The position numbers and the translations under genes were made by a program. Positions 2,382-29,779 of a stretch of DNA of 31,497 nucleotides are shown piece by piece. How positions within the stretch are numbered: the stretch's first letter is position 1; every line of letters starts with the position of its first letter. The notes under the pieces were generated by a model. The model was not told where the DNA came from. It searched no databases and was given only the letters and a program-made list of their open reading frames with translations. Origin of the DNA: a virus; IMG/VR virus record IMGVR_UViG_3300034198_009554, positions 1-31,497 of that record; one strand, 5' to 3'.

Positions 2382-2690
2382 TCACTCTGGGCTGAATGAG
2401 CTTCCACATCCGCAGGTTGTAACCGCGTTGGGGTTTTTAATACTAAATTGGGATCCATTAATATCTTCTTTATAATCTATCGTAGCATCGGTTAGATATT
2501 GCATACTCATAGAATCCACTACTACGTTATCAAACTCGAAGTCATCTTCGTTGAGTGTATTCTCTATGGTAAAACCGTATTGCATACCGCTACATCCGCC
2601 ACCTTGCACAAATGCACGGACGTACTTGCTACCATCTTCTAGTAAGATGTCAGCTATTTTAATCTTTGCAGATTCTGTAATAGTAATCAT
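2382..2690 (-). CDS. A-type iron-sulfur cluster carrier (IscA/ErpA/HesB family)
   Basis: A 102-aa protein of the A-type Fe-S carrier family, which holds and delivers Fe-S clusters to apo-proteins. All three conserved cysteines are present: C33 in GGGCSGMQY and C93/C95 in TTCGCGSS, with the usual spacing and total length. The start overlaps the stop of the halogenase-like gene as ATGA, so the two are translationally coupled. HesB-like proteins are known from T4-like cyanophages. A second, diverged copy sits at 4003-4329 on the other strand. Possible clients in the window are the radical SAM enzymes. Confidence 0.9.
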
Positions 2691-3968: not shown

Positions 3969-3976
3969 GCTAAATA
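3969..3976 (+). promoter_or_regulatory. Possible T4-type late promoter box, rightward
   Basis: GCTAAATA matches the T4-type late box TATAAATA at six of eight positions and lies 26 bases before the ATG of the rightward IscA-like gene. It would drive the IscA/tail operon. The match is weak in AT-rich DNA, and support comes mainly from its position in a divergent intergenic region. Confidence 0.35.
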
Positions 3977-4002: not shown

Positions 4003-4329
4003 ATGATCAATTTAACAACTGAAGCCGTTAAAAAAGTAAGCGAAAATCTTAAAAAGCGCGGTAAAGGTGCGGGGATCAGGATAGGCGTAAGAACAACAGG
4101 GTGTAGCGGTCTAGCCTATGTGCTAGAATACGTCGACAAATACGAAAGTGAAGAGGGTGTTATCAACTATGCCCAGCAGGACTTTGTAGTATTGGTCAGT
4201 CAAAAAGATGATCCTTATCTACGTGGCCTAACAATGGATTGGGTGCGTAATGGTCTTAATGAAGGCTTTGATTTTTCAAACCCAAATGAAAGAGATCGTT
4301 GCGGGTGCGGAGAAAGTTTTAGAGTTTAA
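4003..4329 (+). CDS. A-type iron-sulfur cluster carrier, second copy (IscA-like)
   Basis: A 108-aa A-type Fe-S carrier, closer to bacterial IscA than the copy at 2382-2690. It has GIRIGVRTTGCSGLAYVLEY with C34 and ends in CGCGESFRV with C100 and C102. The C-terminal GLNEGFDFSNPNE stretch is also typical of cellular IscA. Length and cysteine spacing are normal, so it should be functional. It is the first gene of the rightward operon that continues into the tail proteins, 11 bases before the next ATG. This suggests expression together with virion genes. Confidence 0.92.
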   Translation: MINLTTEAVKKVSENLKKRGKGAGIRIGVRTTGCSGLAYVLEYVDKYESEEGVINYAQQDFVVLVSQKDDPYLRGLTMDWVRNGLNEGFDFSNPNERDRCGCGESFRV

Positions 4330-4340
4330 CAGGAAAGTAA

Positions 4341-5255
4341 ATGGCCACAAGTAAAATTACCAAAGATACCTTCAACGGGATACAGGCAAAAATTGCTTCT
4401 ATTCTAGGAGCGCCTGATCAATCTCAAGTAGATTTGGGATACAACTTGACCTTTAATAGTTCACAAGTCCAGACCAATGCTATAGTCTACGGAGACGATG
4501 CAAACAAAGCCATTGGCGATCTTAACACCATTGTGCAACACCAAACTGGGTATCCCACTGCATTACCTTTATTTTCCCAAGGTCAATTAATTACCGTAAA
4601 TGATTTAACACAGCTATCATCTATCACTACTTCTGCTGTGACATCTCGTAATACAGTAGCGGCATCATTGTTAGCTGTAAAAATTTCCGACTCTTATAGT
4701 GATGGTAGTACCTGGAGTACCCTAAGACAACATGGAGTTACTTTAGATTGGGGTAACAATAATAATTTCCGAGGATGGACTAACGCCGGCGGCTTTATAA
4801 CGGTTTCGGCCAGCTTCTCTGGTGGTAGCGGAACTAGACAAACAGGGTCATGGGCAACCTTATTAAATTCAGCAGGTACTCTTGTATTTTCAGGTAACGC
4901 CGCGTTTCAGACCAACAGCGATCGACCCGGCAGTATCCCCAATGGCGGATTATATAATATTATACAAAATGGACAATCACCCGGCCATGATGGTATCGCT
5001 TTTAGATTATTAGCGACAGAAGCAAACTATACATCCAATACTTACAAGCTGACTATTAATCCTTATCCAGACGGAACTGGAATGTTTAACTGCACTGGAT
5101 TCACACTAACAGCGACTATGACTGACCCGCACACTGCTCCTGCTCACACTTCGGATGACTATATCGATTCGTTGTTCTCTTGGTCAGTTAATACATATTA
5201 TGCTTACCAACAACAAGTACCAACCGTAGTTGGCACAACAAATACTATAACCTAA
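4341..5255 (+). CDS. Tail-fibre/virion structural protein, module A
   Basis: A 304-aa protein rich in Ser, Thr, Gly and Asn with no cofactor motif, as expected of a beta-rich phage surface protein. The N-terminal segment (about 5-70: DTFNGIQAKIASILG, then SSQVQTN and a second helix) and the middle motif DWGNNNNFRGWTNAGG match the C-terminal part of the 1451-aa protein two genes downstream (DWNLLQSKISAVLG, SSQVQTN, DFGSNRAFREFWNGGG). It therefore belongs to a three-member paralogous set. AGGAAAG precedes the ATG. A role in the tail tip, fibre or baseplate decoration is inferred from composition, context and resemblance to structural proteins of marine T4-like phages. Confidence 0.75.
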   Translation: MATSKITKDTFNGIQAKIASILGAPDQSQVDLGYNLTFNSSQVQTNAIVYGDDANKAIGDLNTIVQHQTGYPTALPLFSQGQLITVNDLTQLSSITTSAVTSRNTVAASLLAVKISDSYSDGSTWSTLRQHGVTLDWGNNNNFRGWTNAGGFITVSASFSGGSGTRQTGSWATLLNSAGTLVFSGNAAFQTNSDRPGSIPNGGLYNIIQNGQSPGHDGIAFRLLATEANYTSNTYKLTINPYPDGTGMFNCTGFTLTATMTDPHTAPAHTSDDYIDSLFSWSVNTYYAYQQQVPTVVGTTNTIT

Positions 5256-5265
5256 GGAATAAACT

Positions 5266-6120
5266 ATGTCACAAGTATCACATAACGATTGGAATCCCCT
5301 AGTAAGTAGTATACAGACTATTATGACCAGCTGGGGTGTAGGATACAGCAGTTATGCAGTTGCTACTGGAAACACAGTTAATCATAATGATTTCAATGCA
5401 CTGGTCAGCGATATTAATGTATGCTACCAACACATATATGGTACTAACAGTTCGATTTCAACAGTGGCTCAAGGAACTCGGATATCACAGGCCTATTTGA
5501 CAAACGCTTCTGCCGCTGTTAGCAATATCGTTACCAATCGTTACGCGGCTACTTCCAGTATACGAACACAAGTCACATTCTACGACAGTGGTAATGTACC
5601 TGTTGGCCCCTTCAACAGCTATTGGACCGTGCAGTGGACTGTTAATTGGGGAAGCTCTAGTGCTTACCAGCTGTTTTGGAATAACGGTGGTTATTTTGAA
5701 TTTGCAACAGGTGGCGGAGGAGGATCAAACGGTCAAAGCGTTGAGATTGGCAAACTGTTTCAAAACATGGGAGTCCTTGTTATGACTGCTAATAGCTGTT
5801 ATCAATCAGGACAAACTTGGACTGGTACCATTTATTTCCAAGGAGCCTTAAATGCTGCCTCCGGAGGATCAACTTGGCTTTATCTCTCTAATCCAGATTC
5901 GTCATACACTGCGGATTATATGACAGTAGCCTATACTCCAAACGGCACATTCACTTCAGCCAGCTCAGCTGTAGTTACCTTGGCTGTTTATAATGGACGA
6001 ACAACTTTGGGGGGAGCGCCTAATACAATATTAACATCTGGAGAGGGTGTGTTCTATCTTAACTATGTCAACGGGCATAGCTTATCAAGTATCACATTAA
6101 CCAGCCAGACAACAGTCTAA
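5266..6120 (+). CDS. Tail-fibre/virion structural protein, module B
   Basis: A 284-aa Gly/Ser/Thr-rich protein homologous to its upstream neighbour and to the C-terminal third of its downstream neighbour. It carries the module twice in short form at the N-terminus (SHNDWNPLVSSI and NHNDFNALVSDINVCYQHIYG), followed by NWGSSSAYQLFWNNGG near 135-150. CYQHI is shared almost exactly with the 1451-aa protein. The ATG follows AAGGA at good distance, and the same TAAGGAATAA string (stop plus ribosome-binding site) also precedes the next gene. No enzymatic motif is visible. Probably a virion component acting with the two neighbouring proteins. Confidence 0.75.
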   Translation: MSQVSHNDWNPLVSSIQTIMTSWGVGYSSYAVATGNTVNHNDFNALVSDINVCYQHIYGTNSSISTVAQGTRISQAYLTNASAAVSNIVTNRYAATSSIRTQVTFYDSGNVPVGPFNSYWTVQWTVNWGSSSAYQLFWNNGGYFEFATGGGGGSNGQSVEIGKLFQNMGVLVMTANSCYQSGQTWTGTIYFQGALNAASGGSTWLYLSNPDSSYTADYMTVAYTPNGTFTSASSAVVTLAVYNGRTTLGGAPNTILTSGEGVFYLNYVNGHSLSSITLTSQTTV

Positions 6121-6128
6121 GGAATAAT

Positions 6129-9100
6129 ATGAGCGATCTAAAAGAGTATATAGTAATAGTACACAACATCGAAGACAAGCAGGCTTTGCATGATGAAATT
6201 ATCAACTCGGGAGGCAGTGAATGCGTTCCTGATCGTGAAGTAGAATGCGCATTGAATCCAACTACCAGTCGTTGTACTCATTATATGATGACTGAAGAAG
6301 AAGCTCAATTGCTAATGAATGATCCTAGAGTTTGGGATATTTCTAGAACAGCACAAGACCTAGGAATTGAATTCAGACCAAATTCTTCATACACACAGAC
6401 TTCTAATCTTTGGAGTAGAGGTTATATAAGCGCACAAGGTGATAATAACTGGGGTATGCTTAGAGCAGTCGAAGGTGTGCAGAGATTCCAATGGGGTAGC
6501 GACAGTCCACAACAGTTGTACGATGTTTCAGCTACGGTCAATATACCACATGCAGGAGATAATGTAGACGTTGTGATAGTAGATGGTCACGCAGATCCAG
6601 CTCACCCAGAGTTTGCCCTTAATAGCGACGGCACAGGTGGAACTAGATACAATCAATTCAACTGGTTAAGCCTTAACAGCGGGTTATGGGGAACAGCTAA
6701 CGGTACCTATATATACACTCCATATGGTCAATCACAAGGAGCCACTGCCGCGTTAGAAGCAAATAATTCGCACGGTTCACACGTTGCGGGTACTGCATGC
6801 GGTAACACTAACGGATGGGCGAGAAAAGCAAACATCTATAATATATATCCATATGGCGGCAATGATAGCAATACCTTTAACTTTACTACCAATCAGTTCA
6901 TCAACAGTTACTTTTTCGAATACGTAAGGTATTGGCATCAGACTAAAGCGATTAATCCTGCAACAGGCACTAGAAACCCTACCATAATGAACAATAGTTG
7001 GGAAACAGGCGTAACTGTTAATATTTCCGCAATCACTTCAATAAATTATCAAGGCACAACATATACCGCCCCATCAGGCGGCTTTAGTCAAGCAACACTA
7101 AATGGTTTTGGAATTCCTGACTATACTTCTACACAAATTAAATTTCCTATTAGATATTCTCCGTACGAAGCACAGGTGCAGGATTGTATAAATGCAGGAA
7201 TCATAGTCACAGCCGCCGCAGGCAATAGTTCATATAAAATCGCCAGAGATGATCAATCAGGAACTGATCCTGATTATAATAATAGTGTCACGTATACATC
7301 GAATGGCAGTACCGTTACTTACAACTATAACAGAGGATCTTTCCTTGCATGTAGTAACACAATTTTAGTAGGAGCTCTAAGTTCTTCATACATTGATATT
7401 AAATCAGGGTATTCTAATACCGGTCCCCGCATAGATGTATTTTCGCCCGGATCTTATATTATGAGTTCTTTCTTTAACACCACAGCTTTCGGCGGTGTTC
7501 CTGATGCTAGAAATACCAATTACTATCAAGGAAAGATTAATGGAACCTCAATGGCCTGTCCACAGGTAACAGGCTTGTTAGCTACACTTTTAGAAATATT
7601 TCCTACAGCCAGCCAAGCCGATGCTCAGACCTATCTAGCTACCAATTCAAAAACTGGCCAAATGCAAGACGGAGGATATAATGTTATCAACCCAAACTAT
7701 GATACAGGCAAGTTACAAGGAGCTCCAAACAGAACGTTGTATGCCTATTGGCCTCCATCACCAACAGCTACAGTCGCCATACCATCAGTCACTGTTAAGA
7801 CAGGTAGTCAAGTTAAATTTACTCCAGTAGTAGGTTCGGGAGGAGTTGGTAATCTTGTTTATACTATTAATCCTGCACTACCAAGCGGTACCAGTTTTAC
7901 AGGTTGGATAGAATCTATACCAGGAAACACAGCCAACGCCTATCTACACATAACCGGCGGAAACGCTTCTTTACTACAGGTTAATGATTATATTACAGGA
8001 CCGGGAATTGTCGATAGTACATTTTTATCATTTCCAACAGACGGAACACAGGCAATTTTTACCATTTATCCCGGTTATAGCTCTAATGTGGGTAGTGCTG
8101 GCAGTCCTATCACGTTCAATAACGGCATGCATATAAATTCTACCACAGGTGAAATTACAGGCAGGACCGATACAACACAAGGATCAACTTCGTATACGGT
8201 TACAGTTACTGGTAACGGAATATCTACACAGCAAAACTTTTCTCTTACTGTACAGACTCAGGCCATCTACTATAGAACCAATGAAGTCTCGTATGGAACA
8301 GATCTTTTACAGCGTTGCGACATCTATCAGCAATTTAATTCAACTCCGAAGGGTGTTATTTTGTGGGTACATGGCGGAGGATTTACAGGGGGAGCCAAAT
8401 CTCCATTTGGGTATCAGTCTAACCAAGGCGGTAATTGGGTCAATGATTATCATCAGATAAATCAACTGGCTAACCAAGGTTATATTGTTGTTAACTGTAA
8501 CTATAGATTAGCCAATGCTTTGGGATCCGATGATGCCAATCAATATGTTCCAGCTGGAGGTAGTACTGGAAACTATTTTCCAGCCGGTGGTAACGATATC
8601 GAAACAGTGATAAGATTCTGTACTATTGCAGGTGCAGGAAGTTCTTTTAGCTCAGTTTGGGATTATGTTGTTACTGCGGTTAATACTTACGGTCTTATAA
8701 TATCTGGAGCAAGCGCCGGTGGTTGGATGGTAGCGTATGCCGGCATGAAATATATTAATGATTATGGCAATAATAAAATCCTTGCAATATGTCCAGTAGT
8801 AGGTCCGATGGATCTTGATTATGTAACACTAAACGACTCTACTATTAGTGCAACTGCTAAAGGCATAGCTGATAATTTTATCAATAGTTCTCCTAATAAT
8901 AGTTCAGCATTACGTGCGGCAAGTCCTAGATATCTTTATGGTACTACAGGTAGTCCCGGAATTTGGCATTCTGCTGTGCTAAATTCCGGAGTAAAGTGGA
9001 TCTTTGTTAACAACCTAAACGATACTCTTGTAGTGCCCGCGTTAACTGATAATTTTATTAACACATTGCAATCTGAATTAGGCAACACTCGAGTAACGTA

Positions 9101-10484
9101 TATTAAACTCAATGAAGGATCAAAATGGTCTTCAACTATAATCAACCATAATCTAGAATCACCGCTTTCTGTTATCATTGAAAACATAGCAAGCGTTTCA
9201 TTTTCATTGACTCCGCAGGTACAAACCGCATCAAAGATAATTACAGCAGGTACCTCAATCGGAACATTTACTCCAATAATATTTGTAGGAGGTAGTGGAA
9301 CTAAGACCTATAGTATATCCCCTGCGTTACCTGCCGGACTGAGTTTCAATACAACCACAGGAACTATTACAGGAACACCAACAAGCAGTTCACAAACCAC
9401 AACTTATACTATCACAGCTACAGATGCCGCTAACAATACGGCGTCTGCGACATTCACACTATCAGTATTGGCCTATAGTGTAGGTGGCGGATCAGTCGTT
9501 AATCACAACGACTGGAATCTGTTACAAAGTAAAATTAGTGCAGTATTAGGAACACCAGATCTAAACACCGTAGATATCGGTTGGAATCAGTCAGGAAGCA
9601 TCACAAGTTCTCAGGTTCAAACTAATGCTAAAATAACAGGAATCGAATTTGATCAAATAGCCAAAGATGTAGACGTCTGCTATCAGCATATTAATAATAC
9701 TAGATATCAACCTACTTCTAGGGTTCCAACAAGCTCAAAATATTTTGTTACGCAGTCTGATTACACAGGACTAAGCTCAGCCGTTGACTATTGTTACTCT
9801 AATAGGACTACCGTGTCCCCTACAAAGCTGACCAATTACAACTGGACAGCTCACGATACATTATCATTCAATACTGTTTTTGGGTATCATATATGGGTTG
9901 ATTTTGGATCGAATCGTGCATTTAGAGAATTTTGGAATGGTGGCGGATCTATAAATCTTTCATTTAGTTTTTCAGCCTCTAGTGGATCGCCTGTTAATCA
10001 GGCTGTTACAGATCTTGTTAGTAATATGGGAACATTTACTCTTTCTAGAAGTTCATTTACGCAAAACAATGCTACCGGAGGATATAATGGAACTGTAAAC
10101 ATATCGGGCGGTGCCTATGGAGGCAATTTACCACAAGATCCCGACCCTATTGCTAACCCCAGCGTACAAAATATGATTTTGATTAGAGAACAAGAAGCAC
10201 ATTATACTGATAGCTATTTCAATTTATTCATTGGATTGGATAACACTAATCTGTTTGCCGCTACTTCTATTACAGTGATAGGATCTTATGTAAACAGTTA
10301 TACAGGACAAGGAGGTTTTACCACAGGTCCGTCCGGTACATTTGGAGAGAGTATAACAGTATCACTGCCTTTCAATATGTCGGCCCCAGTGTTCAACCAT
10401 TCGTATAATTACATTGACGGCACTTACGGTTATGCCAATGGCAATATAGCACCTTTTTCTTCTATGAGAGGTGGCCGACAATAA
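6129..10484 (+). CDS. Giant adhesin: subtilase + Ig-like + esterase + Ig-like + tail module
   Basis: A 1451-aa multi-domain protein. Residues 1-75 resemble a subtilase I9-type propeptide (YIVIVHN start, then EEAQLLMNDPRVWDIS). Residues about 140-510 form an S8 subtilisin-like protease with its full active site: D152 (VIVDGHAD), H215 (HGSHVAGT), N366 (AAAGNSS) and S474 (GTSMACP). About 547-710 is a He_PIG/Ig-like domain with an insert. About 713-1020 is an alpha/beta-hydrolase of the esterase/lipase type: HGGGF (748-752), nucleophile elbow GASAGG with S862, and likely D965 and H1007. A second Ig-like domain (about 1024-1114, GLSFNTTTGTITGTP) follows. From 1118 the protein is homologous to the two preceding tail proteins. 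There is no signal peptide, which fits a virion protein and not a secreted enzyme. Expected role: receptor recognition plus surface protein and ester hydrolysis. Confidence 0.87.
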   Translation: MSDLKEYIVIVHNIEDKQALHDEIINSGGSECVPDREVECALNPTTSRCTHYMMTEEEAQLLMNDPRVWDISRTAQDLGIEFRPNSSYTQTSNLWSRGYISAQGDNNWGMLRAVEGVQRFQWGSDSPQQLYDVSATVNIPHAGDNVDVVIVDGHADPAHPEFALNSDGTGGTRYNQFNWLSLNSGLWGTANGTYIYTPYGQSQGATAALEANNSHGSHVAGTACGNTNGWARKANIYNIYPYGGNDSNTFNFTTNQFINSYFFEYVRYWHQTKAINPATGTRNPTIMNNSWETGVTVNISAITSINYQGTTYTAPSGGFSQATLNGFGIPDYTSTQIKFPIRYSPYEAQVQDCINAGIIVTAAAGNSSYKIARDDQSGTDPDYNNSVTYTSNGSTVTYNYNRGSFLACSNTILVGALSSSYIDIKSGYSNTGPRIDVFSPGSYIMSSFFNTTAFGGVPDARNTNYYQGKINGTSMACPQVTGLLATLLEIFPTASQADAQTYLATNSKTGQMQDGGYNVINPNYDTGKLQGAPNRTLYAYWPPSPTATVAIPSVTVKTGSQVKFTPVVGSGGVGNLVYTINPALPSGTSFTGWIESIPGNTANAYLHITGGNASLLQVNDYITGPGIVDSTFLSFPTDGTQAIFTIYPGYSSNVGSAGSPITFNNGMHINSTTGEITGRTDTTQGSTSYTVTVTGNGISTQQNFSLTVQTQAIYYRTNEVSYGTDLLQRCDIYQQFNSTPKGVILWVHGGGFTGGAKSPFGYQSNQGGNWVNDYHQINQLANQGYIVVNCNYRLANALGSDDANQYVPAGGSTGNYFPAGGNDIETVIRFCTIAGAGSSFSSVWDYVVTAVNTYGLIISGASAGGWMVAYAGMKYINDYGNNKILAICPVVGPMDLDYVTLNDSTISATAKGIADNFINSSPNNSSALRAASPRYLYGTTGSPGIWHSAVLNSGVKWIFVNNLNDTLVVPALTDNFINTLQSELGNTRVTYIKLNEGSKWSSTIINHNLESPLSVIIENIASVSFSLTPQVQTASKIITAGTSIGTFTPIIFVGGSGTKTYSISPALPAGLSFNTTTGTITGTPTSSSQTTTYTITATDAANNTASATFTLSVLAYSVGGGSVVNHNDWNLLQSKISAVLGTPDLNTVDIGWNQSGSITSSQVQTNAKITGIEFDQIAKDVDVCYQHINNTRYQPTSRVPTSSKYFVTQSDYTGLSSAVDYCYSNRTTVSPTKLTNYNWTAHDTLSFNTVFGYHIWVDFGSNRAFREFWNGGGSINLSFSFSASSGSPVNQAVTDLVSNMGTFTLSRSSFTQNNATGGYNGTVNISGGAYGGNLPQDPDPIANPSVQNMILIREQEAHYTDSYFNLFIGLDNTNLFAATSITVIGSYVNSYTGQGGFTTGPSGTFGESITVSLPFNMSAPVFNHSYNYIDGTYGYANGNIAPFSSMRGGRQ

Positions 10485-10498
10485 AAAGGTAAACAGCA

Positions 10499-10840
10499 AT
10501 GGACGACAGATTAGTCAAAGCTCTTGAACACGCAAACTACAGACAGACATTAGGAATAGAAAGACAACGTCTTAAAGATAAGGCAAAATCAGAATTAGTT
10601 ATAGCCTATAACGGTGGACTGTTTTCAGTTGATAGAACATTGATCGGATTTATCAATTCAATCAAAGACTACGGTTCGGCAGTAATTTTAGACGACAACG
10701 ACTATCCAGTAGAGATAGAAGATTTAGAAGAGTTTCAAGCAAGAGTTGTTGGTACATATTTCGAAGTTACTAATCGATACTTAACAGATTATAACGAAAT
10801 CAAACAAAAACGTAATGCGGCAAAATTGGTGGATTTATGA
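10499..10840 (+). CDS. Small conserved phage-type protein downstream of tail adhesin
   Basis: A 113-aa soluble, charged protein with predicted helices at both ends (KALEHANYRQTLGIERQRLKDKAK; FQARVVGTYFEVTNRYLTDYNEIKQKR) around a short central strand region (VILDDNDYPVEIEDLEEF). It resembles short uncharacterised proteins found near structural genes in T4-like cyanophages, but I cannot assign a function. A role in fibre folding or attachment is only a guess from position. AAAGGTAA lies about eight bases before the ATG, and the stop overlaps the next start as ATGA, tying it to the sugar-transferase block. Confidence 0.7.
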   Translation: MDDRLVKALEHANYRQTLGIERQRLKDKAKSELVIAYNGGLFSVDRTLIGFINSIKDYGSAVILDDNDYPVEIEDLEEFQARVVGTYFEVTNRYLTDYNEIKQKRNAAKLVDL

Positions 10841-11634
10841 CCTGCGGTTGCGTTATCTTTGCCTATGACGGCGACATAGCCTACGGACCTCAAGCAGTTC
10901 TTGCCGCAAGACTGGTTAAGAAATATCTCAAAATTCCCGTAACATTAATCACTAATCAATCTACAGCTTCTAAGACCGATATAGACTCATTTGATTCTGT
11001 AATCTATTCCGAAATAACCGACACAAAGAATTATCGGATACTGTCAGGACAACAAATAACTTTTAAAAATACCAACAGAGGCTCTGTTTATGATCTAACT
11101 CCTTATGACAGAACGCTGGTTATTGACAGCGACTTCCTAGTGTTTAGTAGTCGTTTAAAGGAATATCTAAACACTAATTACGATTTTATGATATGCGAGC
11201 AAATGCATGATTTAGTTCCGGGTAGACCAGGAAGCAAAGTTCGATTTAACCCTAGCAGTTTAGATATGCTATGGGCTACAAATATCATATTCAATAAAAC
11301 TCCGGAAGTAGAATCATTATTTGGATTGGTCGAGCATATTAGAGAAAATTGGTACTGGTATAGTGCTTTGTACAAATTTAATCCAGAAAGATTTCGAAAC
11401 GATTACGCATTTACTGTAGCAAGTCACATGATGGGAGATAAGTTTCACAGAAGTTTGCCAAGTCCGATCTTGTTCAATGATCGAGATAAACTTGTGAAGA
11501 TAAGTGATACAGGACTTTCGTGGGTAGCAGGGGATCAAAACCAACTCATAAAAACATCTGGCCAAGATATCCACATGATGAACAAATTTGATCTACTAGA
11601 CAATATAGATAAGCTAATGGAGTTGACTAAATGA
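10837..11634 (+). CDS. Glycosyltransferase-like protein (GT-A, DxD), pair 1 first copy
   Basis: A 265-aa protein with the outline of a GT-A nucleotide-sugar transferase. It opens with VIFAYDGDIAYG and a helix (VLAARLVKKYL), then a strand (PVTLITN), and has the metal/nucleotide-binding DSD at 97-99 in TLVIDSDFLVF. The following 'ICEQMHDLVPG' and 'WATNIIFNKTPEVESLF' segments fit the acceptor side. The next gene is a paralogue, sharing TPY..T..IDSDFL. Overlaps on both sides are ATGA. Probable role: transfer of a sugar to a virion, DNA or host-envelope acceptor; donor and acceptor cannot be read from the sequence. Confidence 0.7.
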   Translation: MTCGCVIFAYDGDIAYGPQAVLAARLVKKYLKIPVTLITNQSTASKTDIDSFDSVIYSEITDTKNYRILSGQQITFKNTNRGSVYDLTPYDRTLVIDSDFLVFSSRLKEYLNTNYDFMICEQMHDLVPGRPGSKVRFNPSSLDMLWATNIIFNKTPEVESLFGLVEHIRENWYWYSALYKFNPERFRNDYAFTVASHMMGDKFHRSLPSPILFNDRDKLVKISDTGLSWVAGDQNQLIKTSGQDIHMMNKFDLLDNIDKLMELTK

Positions 11635-12494
11635 TCGAAAAACTGCTAGATCGAGGTTATTTTATGATAGCTATTCCTGCTAAAGGTACGGACTATCTTA
11701 GATTAGCGTATGTTACAGCTCTTACAATTAAACTAACACAGCCAGAGGGATATAATTCAGTCTCTATCAGCACTACCCAGGTTAAAAATGCGCAGAATTT
11801 TAAACTGCCGTGGGTATTTGATAATATTATAGAGTATGAAGGTCCGAAAGGAATGAACTCGCGGTCGAGGGCATACGAACATACTCCTTACAAAGAAACA
11901 GTTTTTATCGATAGTGATTTCTTATTTCTTAATGACGTCAGCCACTGGTGGCCCTACATGCAAAAACACGACTTATGGTGTGCTACTCGCCCTATGACCT
12001 TTCGAGGTGAAACTATGGAAAGCAAGTATTATCGAAAAGTTTTTTTAGATAATAATTTACCAGATTTTTATTCTGGCTGGCTGTATTTTAAACAAAGCAG
12101 AGAGACATCTAAGTTTTGGGATATAATGAGAGCGTTAACTGATTATCCTGAAACATGGAAAGACCAGTTAATAAATTGTAATTTTGAAAGCATACCTACA
12201 GATGAAGCTTGCGCATTAACAGCTAAGATGTTAGATATGGTTGAAGATATGAGCGACCCGACTCTTCCTTTTCCGAGATTCACTCATATGAAACCAAGAA
12301 GTCAAGACCTGAGTCACAGTGGCACCGACTGGACTGATAATATTTCTTTTTATTACGACAATGATTTTAAAGTTCGAATTGGTCCTTTTTTACAACAAGA
12401 CATACTACACTATACTAAAAAAGATCTTATATCCGATTCGTTTATAAATTTGCTAGAGGATAAGGTATGGAACCTGTACAAGAACATTTTGTAA
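11631..12494 (+). CDS. Glycosyltransferase-like protein (GT-A, DxD), pair 1 second copy
   Basis: A 287-aa paralogue of the preceding gene. FMIAIPAKGTDYLRLAYVTALTIK at the start matches the nucleotide-binding half, and DSD at 94-96 in TVFIDSDFLFL is the likely metal-binding motif. Tryptophan-rich segments follow (HWWPYMQKHDLW, FYSGWLYFK). The start at 11631 is favoured by the ATGA overlap and GGAG eight bases upstream, but an ATG at 11664 with GAGG seven bases upstream would still give the whole fold. Overlaps the next gene by 28 bases. Specificity unknown. Confidence 0.7.
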   Translation: MIEKLLDRGYFMIAIPAKGTDYLRLAYVTALTIKLTQPEGYNSVSISTTQVKNAQNFKLPWVFDNIIEYEGPKGMNSRSRAYEHTPYKETVFIDSDFLFLNDVSHWWPYMQKHDLWCATRPMTFRGETMESKYYRKVFLDNNLPDFYSGWLYFKQSRETSKFWDIMRALTDYPETWKDQLINCNFESIPTDEACALTAKMLDMVEDMSDPTLPFPRFTHMKPRSQDLSHSGTDWTDNISFYYDNDFKVRIGPFLQQDILHYTKKDLISDSFINLLEDKVWNLYKNIL

Positions 12495-13027
12495 AATTTA
12501 ACTCATCTACGCTACACATATATTCTGTAGGTGCTCATGCTGTAGAAGAAGCGGGCTTTACTATCATGCCAGTGAAATGGGAATTAATAGAACCCTTCAT
12601 CACCCAATTTAAAAACTTATCGGACTATTTTCCTTTATTTGAGAACGGCTCTTTAATTGGATTTAGAAAAAAGAAAATGATTGCGTCACAGATCGTAAAA
12701 AATGACGATTCCGAAACTGTAAAATCTATACAGCCTTATGAAAATTTTATTGCAGACTGCGCTATCAATATACGGGTAAAAGATACTTCTATCCAACTTA
12801 CCTATGACTCATATTACTTTAATGCAGTAGATAATCAAGAAAACATAGATCGGTTGACTTTGGTCAAAGGAAATCAGTATAATATACATATAACCCAAAA
12901 AGGAAATCCCTACTTCTTGTACGATAGCCGCATGATTACATTGGATAATTTCTTAGAAGGGAAACCAATCGAAGTGGAATATAGCGGACCAAAGGATATA
13001 TCAGTTTATGTCGTTGCTAAAAATTAA
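12467..13027 (+). CDS. Hypothetical protein (186 aa) in the glycosyltransferase block
   Basis: I do not recognise this protein. It has no membrane segment, and its second half (from about 85) looks like a small beta-rich domain (CAINIRVKDTSIQLTYDSYYF; IEVEYSGPKDISVYVVAKN). The start is well supported by AGAGGAT seven bases upstream, despite a 28-base overlap with the preceding gene. It overlaps the next gene by 20 bases. Lying between the two transferase pairs, it may be an accessory or binding partner, but nothing in it proves this. Confidence 0.6.
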   Translation: MEPVQEHFVKFNSSTLHIYSVGAHAVEEAGFTIMPVKWELIEPFITQFKNLSDYFPLFENGSLIGFRKKKMIASQIVKNDDSETVKSIQPYENFIADCAINIRVKDTSIQLTYDSYYFNAVDNQENIDRLTLVKGNQYNIHITQKGNPYFLYDSRMITLDNFLEGKPIEVEYSGPKDISVYVVAKN

Positions 13028-13883
13028 TGAATTAGATTGCATATTCATCTCGTACGACGAACCGAATGCAGAGTTAAACTATGCAAAGCTATTACAAGAA
13101 GCTCCGTGGGCTAAACGTGTACATGGGGTTAAAGGTAGCGACGCCTGCCATAAAGCCGCGGCCAATCTAAGTAATACAGAATGGTTCGTCACTGTAGACG
13201 CAGACAATATTGTTAATCCCAAATTCTGGGATTTAGAAATTGGCTTAGACAAATATCCAAATGCACAAGCATTTAACTGGCCGGGACGCAATAATATCAA
13301 CGGACTACGGTACGGTAATGGCAGTCTTAAAGCGTGGCGTAAAGAATTTGTGCTTAATATGAAAACGCACGAAGCCGCAGAAGAAGATAAAGGTCAAGTA
13401 GACTTTTGCTGGGAAGCAGGATACTATCCATTAACAGTAAGCTACTCGGATACGATTATAAACACTACTCCACTGCAGGCATGGAGGGCAGGATTCCGTG
13501 AAGGTGTAAAGATGTGCTTAGATCGCGGCATACGATTAGAACAGGGTAAACCAGCAACTGAAGTAATCTGGTGGGAGAACCTGCATAGACTAAAGCAGTG
13601 GCTTACATTGGGCATACATGCCAATCAAGGTGCATGGGCAATAGTCGGTGCGTGGCAAGGCGTGTATCTCACAATGTGTACCGATTGGGATATTACTAAT
13701 GTTCGAGACTTTGAAATACTAAATGAAATGTTTAATAGAATAGCTGGCATAGACCCGTTAGAACTAATTCAAATGTATCAAATAAAAACAAAAGATTTTA
13801 TTAGTGTGCCTGTACTTAATGCAGACACAAGCGCCTATGTAGTAAACACATTTGACGAATTTTACAGGCTCAATCGTGTATGA
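13008..13883 (+). CDS. Glycosyltransferase-like protein (DxD), pair 2 first copy
   Basis: A 291-aa protein with a GT-A-like beginning: CIFISYDEPNAELNY, VHGVKGSDACHKAA and a DAD motif at 64-66 in WFVTVDADNIV. This order (strand, E-P-N-A-E-x-N-Y, a helix, DxD) is repeated in the next gene (IIFISYGEPNAEENY ... VVDGDAHI), so they are a tandem pair. It is unlike the first transferase pair upstream. Later parts are Trp-rich (AWRAGFREGVKMCL, EVIWWENLHRLKQW), and 'W(R)xxFRE' recurs in the paralogue. AAAGGA lies eleven bases before the ATG, a long spacing. Probable sugar-transfer role, acceptor unknown. Confidence 0.65.
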   Translation: MSLLKINELDCIFISYDEPNAELNYAKLLQEAPWAKRVHGVKGSDACHKAAANLSNTEWFVTVDADNIVNPKFWDLEIGLDKYPNAQAFNWPGRNNINGLRYGNGSLKAWRKEFVLNMKTHEAAEEDKGQVDFCWEAGYYPLTVSYSDTIINTTPLQAWRAGFREGVKMCLDRGIRLEQGKPATEVIWWENLHRLKQWLTLGIHANQGAWAIVGAWQGVYLTMCTDWDITNVRDFEILNEMFNRIAGIDPLELIQMYQIKTKDFISVPVLNADTSAYVVNTFDEFYRLNRV

Positions 13884-14607
13884 TATAATTTTCATTAGCT
13901 ACGGAGAACCAAATGCTGAAGAAAACTATCAGCGGGTTAAGACACGGTTTCCATTAGCTAAACGTGTCAAGGATACTAAGGGAATTCATCAGGCGCATAT
14001 AAAAGCCGCACGTATGAGTTTTACTGAAATGTTTTGGGTAGTCGACGGTGATGCACATATATTAGATTCTTTCAACTTTGATTACAAAGTACCCGAATGG
14101 GATTTAGAATGTGTGCATGTGTGGCGCAGTCGCAACCCGCTTAATAATCTTGAATACGGCTACGGAGGTGTTAAACTTCTACCTAAGAAACTAACAATCA
14201 ATATGGACATATCAAAGCCAGATATGACTACCAGTATTAGCACTAAGTTTAAGGCTATGGAAGAAGTTAGTAATATTACTGCGTTCAATACTGATGCATT
14301 TAGCACTTGGCGAAGTGCTTTTAGAGAGTGTGCCAAACTTGCCAGTAAAACTATCGACGGACAAGTAACTGAAGAAAGCGAAGCTAGACTTTATTTTTGG
14401 TGTCAATTAAACACCTATGCTAAGTTTGGTTCGCAAGGGTATGCGGGTGCATTGTCCGGGAAGCAATTTGGGTTAGATAATAAACACGATATAACTAAGA
14501 TTAACAACTATGAATGGTTAAAGGAACAATATGAAAACATTACTGGAAATATTAAAGAATCCTTATCAGTGGTTCAAGACTCGTCAGCGGATCAAAGAGC
14601 TTCGTAA
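13876..14607 (+). CDS. Glycosyltransferase-like protein (DxD), pair 2 second copy; GTG start
   Basis: A paralogue of the preceding gene: YDIIFISYGEPNAEENY, KDTKGIHQAH, a DGD motif in WVVDGDAHI, and STWRSAFRECAKLA in its second half. The frame is open from a TTG at 13852, but I chose GTG at 13876. It gives only an 8-base overlap, has AGG seven bases upstream, and aligns the N-terminus with the paralogue (243 aa). The copy is shorter at its C-terminus than its neighbour, and its last 77 bases are overlapped by a 33-aa ORF in another frame. Role inferred as sugar transfer. Confidence 0.62.
   Translation: MYDIIFISYGEPNAEENYQRVKTRFPLAKRVKDTKGIHQAHIKAARMSFTEMFWVVDGDAHILDSFNFDYKVPEWDLECVHVWRSRNPLNNLEYGYGGVKLLPKKLTINMDISKPDMTTSISTKFKAMEEVSNITAFNTDAFSTWRSAFRECAKLASKTIDGQVTEESEARLYFWCQLNTYAKFGSQGYAGALSGKQFGLDNKHDITKINNYEWLKEQYENITGNIKESLSVVQDSSADQRAS
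14520..14525 (+). promoter_or_regulatory. Strong ribosome-binding site inside a coding region
   Basis: AAAGGA stands five bases before ATG 14531, within the upstream transferase gene. It supports translation of the otherwise hidden 33-aa ORF, and through the ATGA at 14629 also supports coupled translation of the carbamoyltransferase homologue, which has no ribosome-binding site of its own. Confidence 0.65.
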
Positions 14608-14632
14608 GCGAGATCCTTTTATTTACAAATGA
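14531..14632 (+). CDS. Hidden small protein (33 aa), basic
   Basis: A 33-codon frame out of phase with the end of the upstream transferase gene. It begins MKTLLEILKNPYQWFK and ends KELRKRDPFIYK. It has an AAAGGA ribosome-binding site, and its TGA overlaps the next ATG as ATGA. The product is strongly basic with an amphipathic first half and a KRDPFIY tail. Short basic proteins with a similar 'kelrkrDPFIY' end seem familiar to me from T4-like cyanophages, but I cannot verify this here. It may act as a leader that couples translation of the next gene, as a small membrane-surface protein, or both. Confidence 0.62.
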   Translation: MKTLLEILKNPYQWFKTRQRIKELRKRDPFIYK

Positions 14633-15573
14633 TAAACTGGGGAATAAATGCTCTTAATCACGGCAGTAGTCTGGCTGTGTTTAAAGACAGTAAGTTAGTA
14701 TTACAGACTACAAGTGTAGAAGACAACCTAGATAGTAGTCAATACGTTCAGGCATTAAACTACGGTAGTCCAGATCGTATCTTCTGGTACGAACGTCCGT
14801 GGGTTAAGAAAGCAAGACAAATTTATGCTGGACAATATTCAACAGCATTAGACATGTCGGTCCTGCCAAAACGCCATCTAAGGCAATTTAAGTACGCACC
14901 GGTAACCTACACACCCCATCACGGTAGTCATGCCGCCGCAGGTTATTATACAAGCCCGTTCAACCATTGTGCTATCGTAGTACTCGATGCTATTGGAGAA
15001 TTTGAGTGTGCAACTATTTGGGAAGGTCTCCACGGTGAAATTCGTAAAGTATGGAGCCGTAGCTATCCAAATAGCTTAGGCCTGTTTTATAGCGCCTTTA
15101 CACAATTTGTTGGGCTAACTCCTATTAAGGATGAATATCTGTTACAAAAGATGGCAGAAAAAGGTGACCCCAACAGGTATTATCAAGTAGTCCGTAATTA
15201 CTTCGGACATTGGACATTAGATTTAAAATATAATTTTCACAGGGGTGTACCAAATTGGCCATGCGAAACAGCAGACTTACAAAACCAATGTGACATAGCG
15301 GCCGCAGTACAAAAAGTATTTGAACTACAGATTGAAAATGTTATGTGGGAAGCTAAAAAACGGATTAAATCTGATTGCTTGGTATATATGGGAGGGTGTG
15401 CCATGAACAGCAAGGCTAATAAAGATGTTGTCGAAAATTTCTTTAACTATAGATGGAGTCTTCCCAATCCAGGAGATCCTAGCTCAAGTATTGGTGCAGT
15501 ATTGTATCACACTAAACAACGTGTATGGGATTATCGATGGGATCCAGTCAAACACATTGCAATTAACGTGTGA
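14629..15573 (+). CDS. Carbamoyltransferase homologue, Kae1-like half only
   Basis: A 314-aa protein matching the N-terminal Kae1-like (ASKHA-fold) domain of the NodU/CmcH/TobZ O-carbamoyltransferases. Visible family marks: HHGSHAAAGYY (97-107) with metal-binding histidines; LDAIGEF (119-125) in the place of DGxGE; YSAFTQFVGL...KDEY...MAEKG (154-179); GGCAMNS (255-261); PGDPSSSIGA (281-290). Usual members are about 500-600 aa with a C-terminal YrdC-like domain, which is absent here. The missing half may be supplied in trans, or the protein may do a different nucleotide-dependent reaction. No ribosome-binding site is seen; its start is coupled by ATGA to the 33-aa ORF. Next to sugar transferases, a role in sugar decoration is plausible. 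Confidence 0.8.
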   Translation: MINWGINALNHGSSLAVFKDSKLVLQTTSVEDNLDSSQYVQALNYGSPDRIFWYERPWVKKARQIYAGQYSTALDMSVLPKRHLRQFKYAPVTYTPHHGSHAAAGYYTSPFNHCAIVVLDAIGEFECATIWEGLHGEIRKVWSRSYPNSLGLFYSAFTQFVGLTPIKDEYLLQKMAEKGDPNRYYQVVRNYFGHWTLDLKYNFHRGVPNWPCETADLQNQCDIAAAVQKVFELQIENVMWEAKKRIKSDCLVYMGGCAMNSKANKDVVENFFNYRWSLPNPGDPSSSIGAVLYHTKQRVWDYRWDPVKHIAINV

Positions 15574-17746: not shown

Positions 17747-18385
17747 ATGTACTATAAAAAGATGACTACTATGCCTAGTCTACCGGAAGATCTAAAAAAG
17801 GATCTAATAGAAGAAGCAATCAAGATGTTTGAAACACAACAAGAAAATAGAATCTTATACCATAGAAGATTTGAGCACGAAGATAAAAATAGTTTAAATT
17901 GCATGACAAATGAGGACATGAATTTTTACGAAACATCGGGCGGTGTATCATGCATGGCCATGAATCCCAGCCTCGAAGCAAGATTGTTTGATTTTTTTAA
18001 AGAAGCCAATCATCCAATAACCAATCAATTTCAATATTACGGGTTCCTCTATGTAGAAGGCGGTCCTTATTGTGCTCCACACATTGATGATATTAATAGA
18101 CGAAGAAATGGATTTCAACTTTTATTAAAAGCAGGCGGCGACGATGTACACACCGCGTGGTGGGAGCCAAAAGAAAATGTTAAAGATTTAACAATTATAG
18201 ACTATAGTGCTATTCCTTATAGTAAATTAAATCTTGCATGCGAGGAGCGTCTAGAAGAAAACACGTGGTACTGGATGAAGTTTGATTCTATACATAGTGT
18301 TGAAAAATTAGAAACTTTAAGAATATTTCTAGCAAGCGGAATAGAAGGAATTGGCGACATCTCATACCTTGCTAAAGATAATTAA
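17747..18385 (+). CDS. 2OG-Fe(II) oxygenase-like protein
   Basis: A 212-aa 2-oxoglutarate/Fe(II)-dependent dioxygenase-like protein. The double-stranded beta-helix core runs from about 95: YGFLYVEGGPYCAPHIDDINRR carries HxD as H112 and D114, and the end has IHSVE (H183) and LRIFLAS (R192) for the distal His and the 2OG-binding Arg. All expected ligands are therefore present. The N-terminal 90 residues are helical and charged. The ATG is preceded by AGGAT, and further upstream by a late-type box. It starts a rightward unit with another oxygenase and a radical SAM enzyme. Substrate unknown. Confidence 0.75.
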   Translation: MYYKKMTTMPSLPEDLKKDLIEEAIKMFETQQENRILYHRRFEHEDKNSLNCMTNEDMNFYETSGGVSCMAMNPSLEARLFDFFKEANHPITNQFQYYGFLYVEGGPYCAPHIDDINRRRNGFQLLLKAGGDDVHTAWWEPKENVKDLTIIDYSAIPYSKLNLACEERLEENTWYWMKFDSIHSVEKLETLRIFLASGIEGIGDISYLAKDN

Positions 18386-18387
18386 AA

Positions 18388-18933
18388 ATGTCAAAAGTTT
18401 TTGAGTATCTAGATATTAAAGACCACGAAATAGTTAGTAAGAAACTATATCAGTATGTTTTAGAACACACGGATATACTTGAAAATAAAATTTATTGGAA
18501 CACGTTAAATGTAGAACATGTGTTAGAACATGTTCCTGAATTGACGCAAGCAGTGAGTCAGATAATTCCTGCACGTATGTTTATGATAGCTATATTTTAT
18601 ACTCCTCCGGGATTTTCTGGCGGGGTACATATCGATTCTAATGTTTTAGATTATCGAGTGTTATGGCCAGTGCATAATTGTGAGAGCTCCTATACTAAAT
18701 TTTTTGATCTTAACGGTAATCGTCTAGTAGAAATGTTTACCGACGGGAAAGATCCATATATGTCAGTAGAAGAAAAATATCCCTTAATTGAAATAGCAAG
18801 CGCCGAAACTCGAGCACCGTTAGTATTTCATGTAAAAACTCCACACGGTATATATACCAACCCATCTTGTACCGGGCCACGATTAACAGCTACTATTGGG
18901 TTTGACTATCCTTTAGAAACTTTTTTAACTTAA
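18388..18933 (+). CDS. 2OG-Fe(II) oxygenase-like protein
   Basis: A 181-aa protein with the same catalytic pattern as its neighbour but little overall similarity. FMIAIFYTPPGFSGGVHID gives HxD at H81 and D83; PLVFHVKTPHGIYTN supplies H153, and GPRLTATIGFDY supplies R165. The TPPG/HID part resembles small phage oxygenases of the aspartyl-hydroxylase-like shape, including the one at 23537-24097 (YTPANGGKLPVHTD). Two bases separate it from the preceding stop, so it is co-transcribed. Substrate unknown; the radical SAM gene directly after it suggests that they act in the same pathway. Confidence 0.75.
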   Translation: MSKVFEYLDIKDHEIVSKKLYQYVLEHTDILENKIYWNTLNVEHVLEHVPELTQAVSQIIPARMFMIAIFYTPPGFSGGVHIDSNVLDYRVLWPVHNCESSYTKFFDLNGNRLVEMFTDGKDPYMSVEEKYPLIEIASAETRAPLVFHVKTPHGIYTNPSCTGPRLTATIGFDYPLETFLT

Positions 18934-18934
18934 T

Positions 18935-20443
18935 ATGAATCACGCATTAATTTTTTCTTCTAGAACTTATCCCTGGGAACGTAGTAGCGGTGCCCATAGG
19001 ATAGCTACCTATCTAAGAAAAAACGAGATGGACATCGAAGTAGTAGATTTTGCGGCGCATTGGCCTCTAGAACAGTTAAAAGAATTTACACGCAAGTCTG
19101 TTACTAATAAAACATTATTTTTTGGATTTAGTACGTTTTTCTCTTTTTGGACTGATATATTAACTGATTTTACGGCATGGTTAAAAAAAGAATATCCACA
19201 TATCAAGACTGTTATAGGTGGACAGAATGTATTACACACTGCCGCACAGAACATAGATATATGGGTGGATAGTTACGGAGAAGAAGCTATGCTGGCGTTA
19301 GCAAAAGCATTAGCGGGAAATTCTACATCGGGGATTATTTTTGAACCAGCGTTTTTTGGCACAAAGAAAGTTATTAAAGCCATACACGCTTATCCGGCAG
19401 TTAATCTCGGAGACTATTCTGTTATTATGGAAAAAAGAGATTTCCTAGAATCTTGGGAATGGTTAACTGTAGAGTTTAGCAGAGGATGCAAGTTCAGCTG
19501 TGCGTTCTGCAATTTTCCTGTATTAGGATTGAAAGAAGATACTTCTAGATCGCAAGAAAGTTTTGAATACGAAATGCGATATAATTATGACAGCTGGGGT
19601 ATCAATAGATATTATGTAGCAGATGAGACGTTTAATGATCGTGTAGAAAAAATTACTAAGTTTGCTGATGTAGTAGAACGATTAGACTTTGATCCCTTCT
19701 TCAGCGGATTTATTCGGGCAGACTTACTCCAAACTAAAGGCATGATTAGCGAGCTTGCTAGAATGAATTTTGGCGGACAATATTACGGTATAGAAACATT
19801 CAATAAAAAAAGTGGCCAAGTGGTCGGTAAAGGCATGGAACCAGACAAGGTAAAGCAGTTAGTGTTAGATACTAAAAATTATTTCCAACAACAAGGTAAA
19901 CCATATAGAGGAACAATAAGTTTGATTGTAGGATTACCGTATAGCGTCGAACAAGAATGGCACAACGCTATGCAATGGTTAAGAGAAAATTGGATTACAG
20001 AATCTCTAGTACTATTTCCGTTGATAGTAGAAAATCTAGCAGAAGGTCAGGAAAAGGATCATACTAACGTAAGTAAATTTGCTAAGAATTTACAAAAATA
20101 TGGTCTTAGAAGATTAGGATCACAGCAAGTAGATTTTTTTGGAGACCCTAGTACAATGTATAACTGGAAGGAAGGAAATTATTCTAGCGATGAAGTGCTG
20201 TGGGAACACGACACAATGAATATTTTCGATGCCAAGAGAATATCAAATAGTCTGCAAGATGCTGTTATTAATGAATTTAATTTAGATTGCTGGCAACTAG
20301 GCTATCCCGAACATGCGGCTAGATCTAAAAGCACAGATTTAAAATCTATCATTAACTTGCCTAAGGCTATTGCTGTAACTAATTTGCATCATGCTCATGA
20401 TCATTTTTTAGATAGTTATATTTCTAAAAAATTAAGTAGTTGA
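18935..20443 (+). CDS. Radical SAM enzyme with B12-binding-like N-terminal domain
   Basis: A 502-aa radical SAM protein. The N-terminal 130 residues look like the Rossmann-type cobalamin-binding domain found in class B radical SAM methyltransferases (VIGGQNVLHTA at 93-103, then VDSYGEEAMLALAKAL). The DxHxxG motif that ligates cobalamin is not seen. The core has GCKFSCAFC with C185, C189 and C192 for the [4Fe-4S] cluster, then SGFIRADLL, YGIETFNKKSG and TISLIVGLPYS, normal for the partial TIM barrel. Likely action: radical methylation, or another C-H functionalisation, of an unknown substrate. Its last 28 bases overlap the opposing SGNH gene. Confidence 0.85.
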   Translation: MNHALIFSSRTYPWERSSGAHRIATYLRKNEMDIEVVDFAAHWPLEQLKEFTRKSVTNKTLFFGFSTFFSFWTDILTDFTAWLKKEYPHIKTVIGGQNVLHTAAQNIDIWVDSYGEEAMLALAKALAGNSTSGIIFEPAFFGTKKVIKAIHAYPAVNLGDYSVIMEKRDFLESWEWLTVEFSRGCKFSCAFCNFPVLGLKEDTSRSQESFEYEMRYNYDSWGINRYYVADETFNDRVEKITKFADVVERLDFDPFFSGFIRADLLQTKGMISELARMNFGGQYYGIETFNKKSGQVVGKGMEPDKVKQLVLDTKNYFQQQGKPYRGTISLIVGLPYSVEQEWHNAMQWLRENWITESLVLFPLIVENLAEGQEKDHTNVSKFAKNLQKYGLRRLGSQQVDFFGDPSTMYNWKEGNYSSDEVLWEHDTMNIFDAKRISNSLQDAVINEFNLDCWQLGYPEHAARSKSTDLKSIINLPKAIAVTNLHHAHDHFLDSYISKKLSS

Positions 20444-21183
20444 GATACTCTTGTTGAGATCTTCTGATATCCTTGTTCTGTAGGGTGTCCACATACTGCC
20501 CAATCTGCTTTATTAGTTAGCCAGTCGCTTGCTACCTGTGACTCGTGTAGTCTATGACTACCTTGATAAGAAATCTCGTTAGAAAATGCTGGGATCCATG
20601 CAAACTTCCAGCCTAGCGATTGGCAACGCATGTGTGCGGCCTGAATATAAAACTGCGATTCCTTTTCCATTCCGTATTCGAAGTCCTGACTTTGAATAAA
20701 CCATCGTACTAATTCAGTATGTGCTTCAGCCCGGGTAGGATCTATATCACTTCCTAACGGTGATCCAATTATTGCAGGTTGATAGTTCCAAATACCTGAT
20801 TTGTGATAAAAACTAAATCGATCCGGACTGGTGGTCATGAATATTACCTGCACTGGACCTTGCAGAGAGGTCGGATCTAACTCATACAGTAGTTTAACTT
20901 GTCCGCTGTTACTGTCGCCAGCCCGTGCCAGATTAATTAATTCACTATCAAATTGCTGACTCAGTAGCGCAGGCCAACTATACCGAGCCGCCCGGTTTCG
21001 AGTCTCTGAGCTCTGCATGAACTTCTGCCATTCTGCACTGGCCGACCATAAATTCTTTGAATGCTTCGACAGACTCCACATTCTATCCATAAACTCGGGA
21101 TCAGCATGGCCATAGCATCCTGTACCTTCAGTCCAGCTGTCTCCTAGTGTGATCAATGTGGGTTTGAAAAAATCGACGTTCAT
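20416..21183 (-). CDS. SGNH/GDSL-type hydrolase
   Basis: A 255-aa SGNH-family esterase-like protein. Block I is ITLGDSWTEG with S16 as nucleophile, block II is INLARAGDSNSG (83-94), and block V is CGHPTEQGYQKIS with H233. No signal peptide, so it acts in the cytoplasm or on the virion. Enzymes of this fold remove or transfer acyl groups on glycans, which would fit the sugar-modification genes. It lies divergently from a second SGNH-type gene at 21256, and its 3' end overlaps the radical SAM gene on the other strand by 28 bases. Specificity unknown. Confidence 0.78.
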   Translation of the reverse strand: MNVDFFKPTLITLGDSWTEGTGCYGHADPEFMDRMWSLSKHSKNLWSASAEWQKFMQSSETRNRAARYSWPALLSQQFDSELINLARAGDSNSGQVKLLYELDPTSLQGPVQVIFMTTSPDRFSFYHKSGIWNYQPAIIGSPLGSDIDPTRAEAHTELVRWFIQSQDFEYGMEKESQFYIQAAHMRCQSLGWKFAWIPAFSNEISYQGSHRLHESQVASDWLTNKADWAVCGHPTEQGYQKISTRVSQLLNFLEI

Positions 21184-21242
21184 ACGGTACTTATGCTATG
21201 AAAAGTCACAGCCATTAATTCTTAATCTGTATTATAACGGTC

Positions 21243-21250
21243 TATAAATA
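21243..21250 (+). promoter_or_regulatory. Perfect T4-type late promoter box, five bases from an ATG
   Basis: TATAAATA, a full match to the T4 late consensus, is followed by TTTCC and then ATG 21256. No ribosome-binding site exists between box and ATG, and the frame is closed upstream by a stop at 21235-21237, so the start cannot lie further upstream. Transcription from this box would start at the ATG itself. Confidence 0.55.
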
Positions 21251-21255
21251 TTTCC

Positions 21256-21951
21256 ATGAAAAAGATTAAATCTGTTTTAGCATTCGGAGATAGCACAACT
21301 GCCGGACTAGAGCTTCACTATCCATTAAGCGTTTTCAAAAGTAGAGCTTATCTCGTAGATAAAGTTCCTATAGATGAGCTTGATGCGCCTGGCAAATTGT
21401 TAACTTTCCCCCAAAAAGTTGCAGATGCGTTAGGAGTACCCTGCTATAATTTTGCTATGTCTGGTGGGACCAATCAACGAAGTATAAGATTGCTAACCAA
21501 AGCTGTTCAAGAATATCCAGACAGTTTGGTGCTTTTCAGTTGGGGTAGGCCCGATATGGCCGAGTTATACTGCCCGGAAGGAGGAGTAGGTTGCGACTCT
21601 GACAATTATTTCCAAGCAGGTAGCGGCAATTTTGAGTCTGAAATGAATACTAAATGGCTTGAAATCTATCACTACAAAAATCATCTAGAGCAACAGATGT
21701 TTATCGTTGATGCTATCTGTAGATTATATACAGCAGATTTCTTACAGATTCCGTTATATCTAAAATCCACCGAACCTGATTACGTACCTAATACTCCTAA
21801 TCTACTGAATTTCGAGGAATTTACAAATGCCGAAGACTACGCTATTTCAAAAGGATGTACGCAGTTAGTCATACACTATGCTGAAGATTTCCATGTAGTA
21901 TTATCTGATCTAATAATTAATAGTCTTAAAAGAAAAGGAACTATAGAATGA
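21256..21951 (+). CDS. SGNH-like hydrolase, divergent second copy
   Basis: A 231-aa protein with SGNH blocks at the N-terminus: VLAFGDSTTAG with S13 and YNFAMSGGTNQ (64-74), followed by LFSWGRPD (94-100). The C-terminal His is probably H207 or H213 in VIHYAEDFHVVL, but spacing to the usual DxxH is not clear. Activity is thus likely but less certain than for the neighbour on the other strand. Only ATG 21256 can serve as start. It has no ribosome-binding site and sits five bases after a perfect late box. Its stop overlaps the next start as ATGA, leading into five consecutive oxygenase genes. Confidence 0.7.
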   Translation: MKKIKSVLAFGDSTTAGLELHYPLSVFKSRAYLVDKVPIDELDAPGKLLTFPQKVADALGVPCYNFAMSGGTNQRSIRLLTKAVQEYPDSLVLFSWGRPDMAELYCPEGGVGCDSDNYFQAGSGNFESEMNTKWLEIYHYKNHLEQQMFIVDAICRLYTADFLQIPLYLKSTEPDYVPNTPNLLNFEEFTNAEDYAISKGCTQLVIHYAEDFHVVLSDLIINSLKRKGTIE

Positions 21952-29739: not shown

Positions 29740-29779
29740 AACTTTAATTATCTGTAAAATATGTGCCTGATAAAATAAT

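Follow-up and report, generated by a model that had tools for sequence, protein, structure and literature searches.

A single open reading frame at positions 6129-10484 (plus strand) of the virus record IMGVR_UViG_3300034198_009554 in IMG/VR, whose 31,497 bases are referred to here as the window, is predicted to encode two complete hydrolases, a subtilisin-like protease and an alpha/beta-hydrolase esterase, in one polypeptide. The frame runs from ATG to stop with no internal stop codon and yields 1451 amino acids (aa), ordered as a prosegment, the subtilase, an immunoglobulin (Ig)-like domain, the BD-FAE-type esterase, a second Ig-like (He_PIG) domain, and a C-terminal module of ~330 aa. The presence of both hydrolases is supported by profile matches, invariant catalytic residues, and purifying selection. 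We consider the product to be, probably, a virion protein made late in infection by a T4-like phage and belonging to its adsorption apparatus, in the tail fibre or at the baseplate periphery. The new part appears to be the joining of the subtilase with the esterase and the C-terminal module; the protease family itself was already known. The chain comprises the following features, with Pfam and PHROG families named where they apply and model quality given as the predicted local distance difference test (pLDDT).

6129..10484, plus strand: fused protease-esterase protein, 1451 aa; open frame, module order kept in relatives
6129..6368, plus strand: N-terminal prosegment, residues 1-80; conserved in 13 homologues, I9-like by topology only
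6558..7658, plus strand: predicted subtilase (S8) domain, residues 144-510; PF00082, PHROG 9158, invariant residues
7764..8264, plus strand: Ig-like (He_PIG-type) linker 1, residues 546-712; second He_PIG stretch, resembling linker 2
8265..9188, plus strand: predicted alpha/beta-hydrolase esterase, residues 713-1020; PF20434, invariant triad, nearest solved structure 4zrs
9201..9473, plus strand: Ig-like (He_PIG) linker 2, residues 1025-1115; PF05345, nearest solved structure the SraP adhesin domain
9483..10481, plus strand: C-terminal phage module, residues 1119-1451; helices followed by a beta-rich region, model pLDDT 84.4

All Pfam domain calls on the chain (Peptidase_S8, He_PIG, and BD-FAE) were above their curated cutoffs. 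Peptidase_S8 (PF00082) covered residues 144-510 (E value, 8.2e-21; 75 bits versus a cutoff of 21.8) and matched all homologues tested (15/15), and PHROG 9158, a phage protein family with no assigned function, spanned residues 4-545 (E value, 1.6e-90). A preliminary description of the sequence had placed a subtilisin active site at D152, H215, N366, and S474, and these residues were found at those positions. The family profile aligned them to catalytic motifs in the solved structures of keratinase, aqualysin, and proteinase K, and they were unchanged in 15 homologues, including those from Synechococcus and Prochlorococcus phages. The I9-like propeptide proposed in the same description held up only in part: the prosegment is conserved and its low-confidence model shows a beta-alpha-beta-alpha-beta order consistent with I9 topology, but the I9 matches in Pfam were subthreshold and confined to cyanophage homologues (best E value, 0.005, under the cutoff), with no match in the window's own prosegment. 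Residues 81-143 form a variable linker joining the prosegment to the catalytic domain, and autoprocessing around residues 75-140 is possible. No signal-peptide-like N terminus was evident by inspection of the 1451-aa chain. Another subtilase of the same family (L002, 8223-10856) carries an insertion of ~340 aa that separates the catalytic His and Ser halves.

For the esterase, BD-FAE (PF20434) matched residues 731-935 of the full chain (E value, 3.9e-9; 36.8 bits versus a cutoff of 26.8) and all members tested among the relatives (10/10). An oxyanion HGGG motif occupies residues 748-751 and S862 lies within GASAGG; none of HGGG, S862, D965, and H1007 varies among the relatives, even those with as little as 46-48% identity. 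D965 and H1007 are assigned as putative triad members by this invariance and by the normal strand/helix order, not by the profile. The proposed alpha/beta-hydrolase with HGGG, GASAGG, and a plausible Asp and His is thus confirmed by the family match and by the invariant residues. Both by sequence and by low-confidence fold, the nearest solved structure is the feruloyl esterase 4zrs. The window's esterase resembles the BD-FAE family and 4zrs in its profile match, HGGG oxyanion motif, and GxSAGG nucleophile but differs in sitting in a phage chain with a protease. A tblastn search with the esterase retrieved no match in cultured phages, and no relative was among the 70 matches to its pattern in the genomes of bacteria and archaea. 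The two Ig-like linkers were likewise recovered, with two stretches over the Pfam cutoff for He_PIG (PF05345), the better of which covers residues 1044-1113 (E value, 9e-15).

Structure prediction, which the preliminary description had suggested as a check, gave a good model of the C-terminal module but a poor one of residues 1-1118, for which a fold model built with 12 relatives had a mean pLDDT of 53.6 and is unusable for active-site geometry. The Foldseek matches of this poor model lend support to the esterase and Ig domains alone.

The complete chain occurs in seven other IMG/VR contigs, namely, L009 (with L010 as a second assembly), L012, L013, L014, L015, L037 (with L036 as a second assembly), and L046, and partial copies cut by contig ends occur in L011, L016, L017, L018, L019, L020, and L048. 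As an IMG/VR query, the subtilase alone retrieved only one relative, while the esterase and C-terminal queries gave more. In every relative covering them, all catalytic residues of both enzymes are invariant, and for pairs with unsaturated dS, every domain has a ratio of nonsynonymous to synonymous substitution rates (dN/dS) of 0.03-0.22. The conserved order and low dN/dS exclude a chance fusion and argue that selection maintains the function of both enzymes.

In addition to its place in the fused chain, the C-terminal module is represented by two stand-alone proteins encoded immediately upstream.

4341..5255, plus strand: stand-alone paralogue of the C-terminal module, 304 aa; blastp to residues 1119-1451
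5266..6120, plus strand: stand-alone paralogue of the C-terminal module, 284 aa; blastp to the C-terminal module

By blastp, the C-terminal 333 aa share 29.8% identity with the first (E value, 7e-21) and 28.4% with the second (E value, 3e-12). The earlier statement that the C terminus is homologous to two neighbouring tail-type proteins therefore stands as regards homology (28-30%), but the neighbours match no named tail family and returned no Pfam or PHROG match at all. Homology to named tail-fibre or tailspike families was found for neither the module nor its paralogues in Pfam, PHROG, or PDB fold comparisons. A fold search with the module gave three uncharacterised viral matches (template modelling [TM] score of about 0.65); weak PDB fold matches to plant and insect virus capsids (TM score of <0.2) were rejected. 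The module and the first paralogue had no tblastn match in cultured phages. The module forms a family of its own. It is present without the enzymes in L049-L052, and a distant member (L053) forms the N terminus of a protein with Calx-beta repeats on contig G016, which also carries T4-like terminase, sheath, tail tube, and replication genes. The simplest history would be that an enzyme cassette was joined to the front of one member of a pre-existing structural gene array.

The fused gene and its paralogues belong to an operon that begins with a promoter-like box and a small gene.

3970..3976, plus strand: CTAAATA, putative T4-type late promoter-like box, 33 nucleotides (nt) before the operon's first gene
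4003..4329, plus strand: A-type Fe-S carrier-like gene, 108 aa, operon head; phrog_17776 (E value, 3.4e-34), kept in relatives

CTAAATA is rare in the window (2 matches versus 10.4 expected), and across five contigs (26 versus 90.5 expected), no other of the 105 permutations of its letters is as strongly depleted. It nevertheless lies 33-34 nt before the operon's first gene in all contigs tested (6/6) and also precedes the same operon in the enzyme-less relatives L049 and L050. On the T4-like contig G016, the box stands ahead of the genes for the tail sheath and tail tube and of a tail fibre gene. Its avoidance and use were noted in the window (3970-3976) and in G001, G004, G006, G013, G014, and G016. 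In a comparative study of five T4-like genomes, CTAAATA was reported to be the putative late promoter of phage Aeh1 (PMC1524935). To judge from its distribution, this uncultured T4-like lineage avoids CTAAATA and uses it as a late promoter-like box, and the operon is most likely a late operon. A scan for sigma-70 promoters and terminators showed no excess over shuffles, and an Rfam search gave no match. The A-type carrier reading of the operon head derives from a CGCG motif judged by eye. Two such carrier-like genes are present in the window (2382-2690 and 4003-4329), the second of which heads the operon; in the relative G004, a NifU-like gene (L022, 14698-15078) likewise places Fe-S assembly genes beside structural genes.

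Relatives of the protease provide a link to tail structures. The subtilase family matched 49 cultured phage records, 44 of which are named Synechococcus or Prochlorococcus phages, and in cyanophages S-H38, Sf-FR1, and S-CREM1, a same-family subtilase adjoins a gene annotated "baseplate wedge subunit and tail pin." The PHROG 9158 members S-H38 PQC14_gp095, Sf-FR1 SfFR1_192, S-CREM1 SCREM1_165, and P-SSM2 PSSM2_297 are homologous to residues 4-545 (about 39-41% identity for the closest three and 29% for P-SSM2), share the prosegment and catalytic residues, and lie beside tail or baseplate genes. They differ in being stand-alone proteins of about 550-610 aa without the esterase, Ig domains, or C-terminal module. 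The protease-esterase pairing, which had been described as unusual on one fibre, appears new as a combination that includes the C-terminal module, although the protease belongs to a known, mostly unnamed cyanophage family. S-SCSM1_228 (1411 aa) resembles the window's protein in having a same-family subtilase at the N terminus of a long multidomain chain, but LamG lectin domains replace the esterase and phage module. This fusion is labelled a virion protein, whereas several other structural genes in the record do not carry that label; according to the S-SCSM1 paper, mass spectrometry identified 45 virion proteins (PMC9602691). Within the lineage under study, G001, G004, and G013 encode a 521-aa stand-alone subtilase between tail-fibre-like genes and also hold the fused gene, with about 14-16 kb of the contig separating the two. 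A literature search on phage virion subtilases found nothing specific in the collection searched.

A precedent exists for the esterase. Tailspikes or fibres with esterase/deacetylase domains occur, for example, in Acinetobacter phage Aristophanes (PMC8471582) and Pectobacterium phage PP99 (PMC6989608), and it is well established that phages use virion proteins to strip ester groups from polysaccharide on the host surface. By the titles and abstracts, these proteins differ from the window's in having no protease in the same chain.

The protease module also appears to move independently of the remainder of the gene. Over most of 18 kb, L012 and L013 share 97-100% identity, yet in the protease module (L013, 7900-9100) this falls to 75-83%. 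In contrast, L013 and L037 are 99-100% identical in the protease stretch and 62-88% identical in most of the remainder.

L012 5013-6250, L013 7853-9100, and L037 2653-3900: putative reciprocal recombination stretch, with the protease module alone replaced

The edges of the swap lie at the gene start and near codons 410-450. L013 and L015 have another partial stretch in common. The window's own protease is nearest to those of L013 and L015 (75-77%), and its esterase is nearest to those of L009 and L011 (71-72%). These patterns indicate that recombination has swapped the protease module among phages that otherwise differ. Independent exchange of this kind is typical of host-facing parts and fits such a role for the protease; together with the conserved arrangement, it suggests that the chain is a modular means of attack on the surface of the host.

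A role in the virion or tail is supported indirectly, by the late promoter-like box, the sister subtilases in tail-fibre and baseplate clusters, and the S-SCSM1 virion-protein label. On the same grounds, the tail adhesin of the preliminary description is plausible, but because the C-terminal module resembles no named tail family, we infer rather than assign adhesin function. The C-terminal module, common to two neighbours in the operon, would dock the protein in the particle, and the Ig-like spacers would hold both hydrolases outward. The protease may be a latent zymogen behind its N-terminal inhibitory prosegment, and the esterase may be of an acyl type (acetyl or feruloyl). Once the particle touches the host, proteins on the surface would be trimmed by the protease and glycans relieved of their ester groups by the esterase, opening a route to the receptor. 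We infer, in this scheme, the presence in the virion, attachment via the C-terminal module, zymogen activation, enzymatic activity, and the substrates. A more specific version, in which the adsorption protein carries a protease and a glycan esterase, the protease is a host-range cassette swapped at its edges, and a second stand-alone virion subtilase is present, is tentative and falls somewhat short of an even chance. Several observations weigh against an adsorption role. The C-terminal module lacks a Pfam, PHROG tail-family, or PDB fold match; the operon lies outside the core structural cluster, among metabolic and glycosyltransferase-like genes; the evidence for swapping derives from metagenome contigs, any single one of which could be a chimeric assembly, so that part of the signal may be artefactual; and the model of residues 1-1118 is too poor to bear out the predicted assembly of the active sites.

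The main rival is that the subtilase is an assembly or maturation protease that cuts itself and perhaps neighbouring fibre proteins, with only the esterase acting on the host. One-off maturation cleavages are common to many phages, and the prosegment and variable linker (residues 81-143) ahead of the catalytic domain, as well as the stand-alone homologues beside fibre genes, would suit such a protease. Against this, the lineage already has a second, stand-alone subtilase in the fibre cluster, the module recombines on its own as expected of a host-facing part rather than a housekeeping step, and no conserved cleavage motif was seen between modules; we regard a maturation role as unlikely. Less likely still is a late soluble product that is not virion bound, either freed at lysis or active in the infected cell, where it would digest host proteins or shed surface polymers. 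No named virion-anchoring domain was matched, and the gene's surroundings are only partly structural, since an Fe-S carrier-like gene heads the operon and glycosyltransferase-like genes follow it. However, the C-terminal module is common to two nonenzymatic neighbours and stands alone in relatives, which fits a structural over a secretory role; the N terminus does not resemble a signal peptide; and the S-SCSM1 homologue is labelled a virion protein.

Dead enzyme folds are sometimes kept by phage receptor-binding proteins, and both folds could accordingly be catalytically silent binding domains. This reading was rejected as highly improbable because every catalytic residue of both sites is invariant in relatives and the protease residues are also invariant across cyanophages. 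Finally, merger of two genes into one frame by misassembly, conceivable for a window of metagenomic origin, is refuted to the point of having almost no credence by the same full-length architecture in seven other, independent contigs from several metagenomes and by dN/dS well below 1 for each domain.

The remainder of the window contains further enzyme genes. A tryptophan halogenase-like gene (PF04820; 2687-3943, minus strand) is kept near the operon in relatives and is also found in several cyanophages. Downstream, positions 10837-15573 hold a run of glycosyltransferase-like genes followed by a gene for a carbamoyltransferase N-terminal domain (314 aa, versus 497 aa at the same place in G004). 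Two divergent, weak matches to GDSL-type lipases/acylhydrolases lie at 20416-21951, and positions 17747-31496 include several 2OG-Fe(II)/TauD-type oxygenases, radical SAM proteins, and one QueC-like protein.

Glycan-degrading virion enzymes are well known, whereas virion proteases directed at the host surface are hardly characterised. The subtilase family is common in cyanophages, where it is often annotated merely as hypothetical. If the adsorption role proposed here is correct, proteolysis of surface proteins would be a common, overlooked entry step of T4-like aquatic phages, and the present lineage would add de-esterification to proteolysis within one swappable chain.

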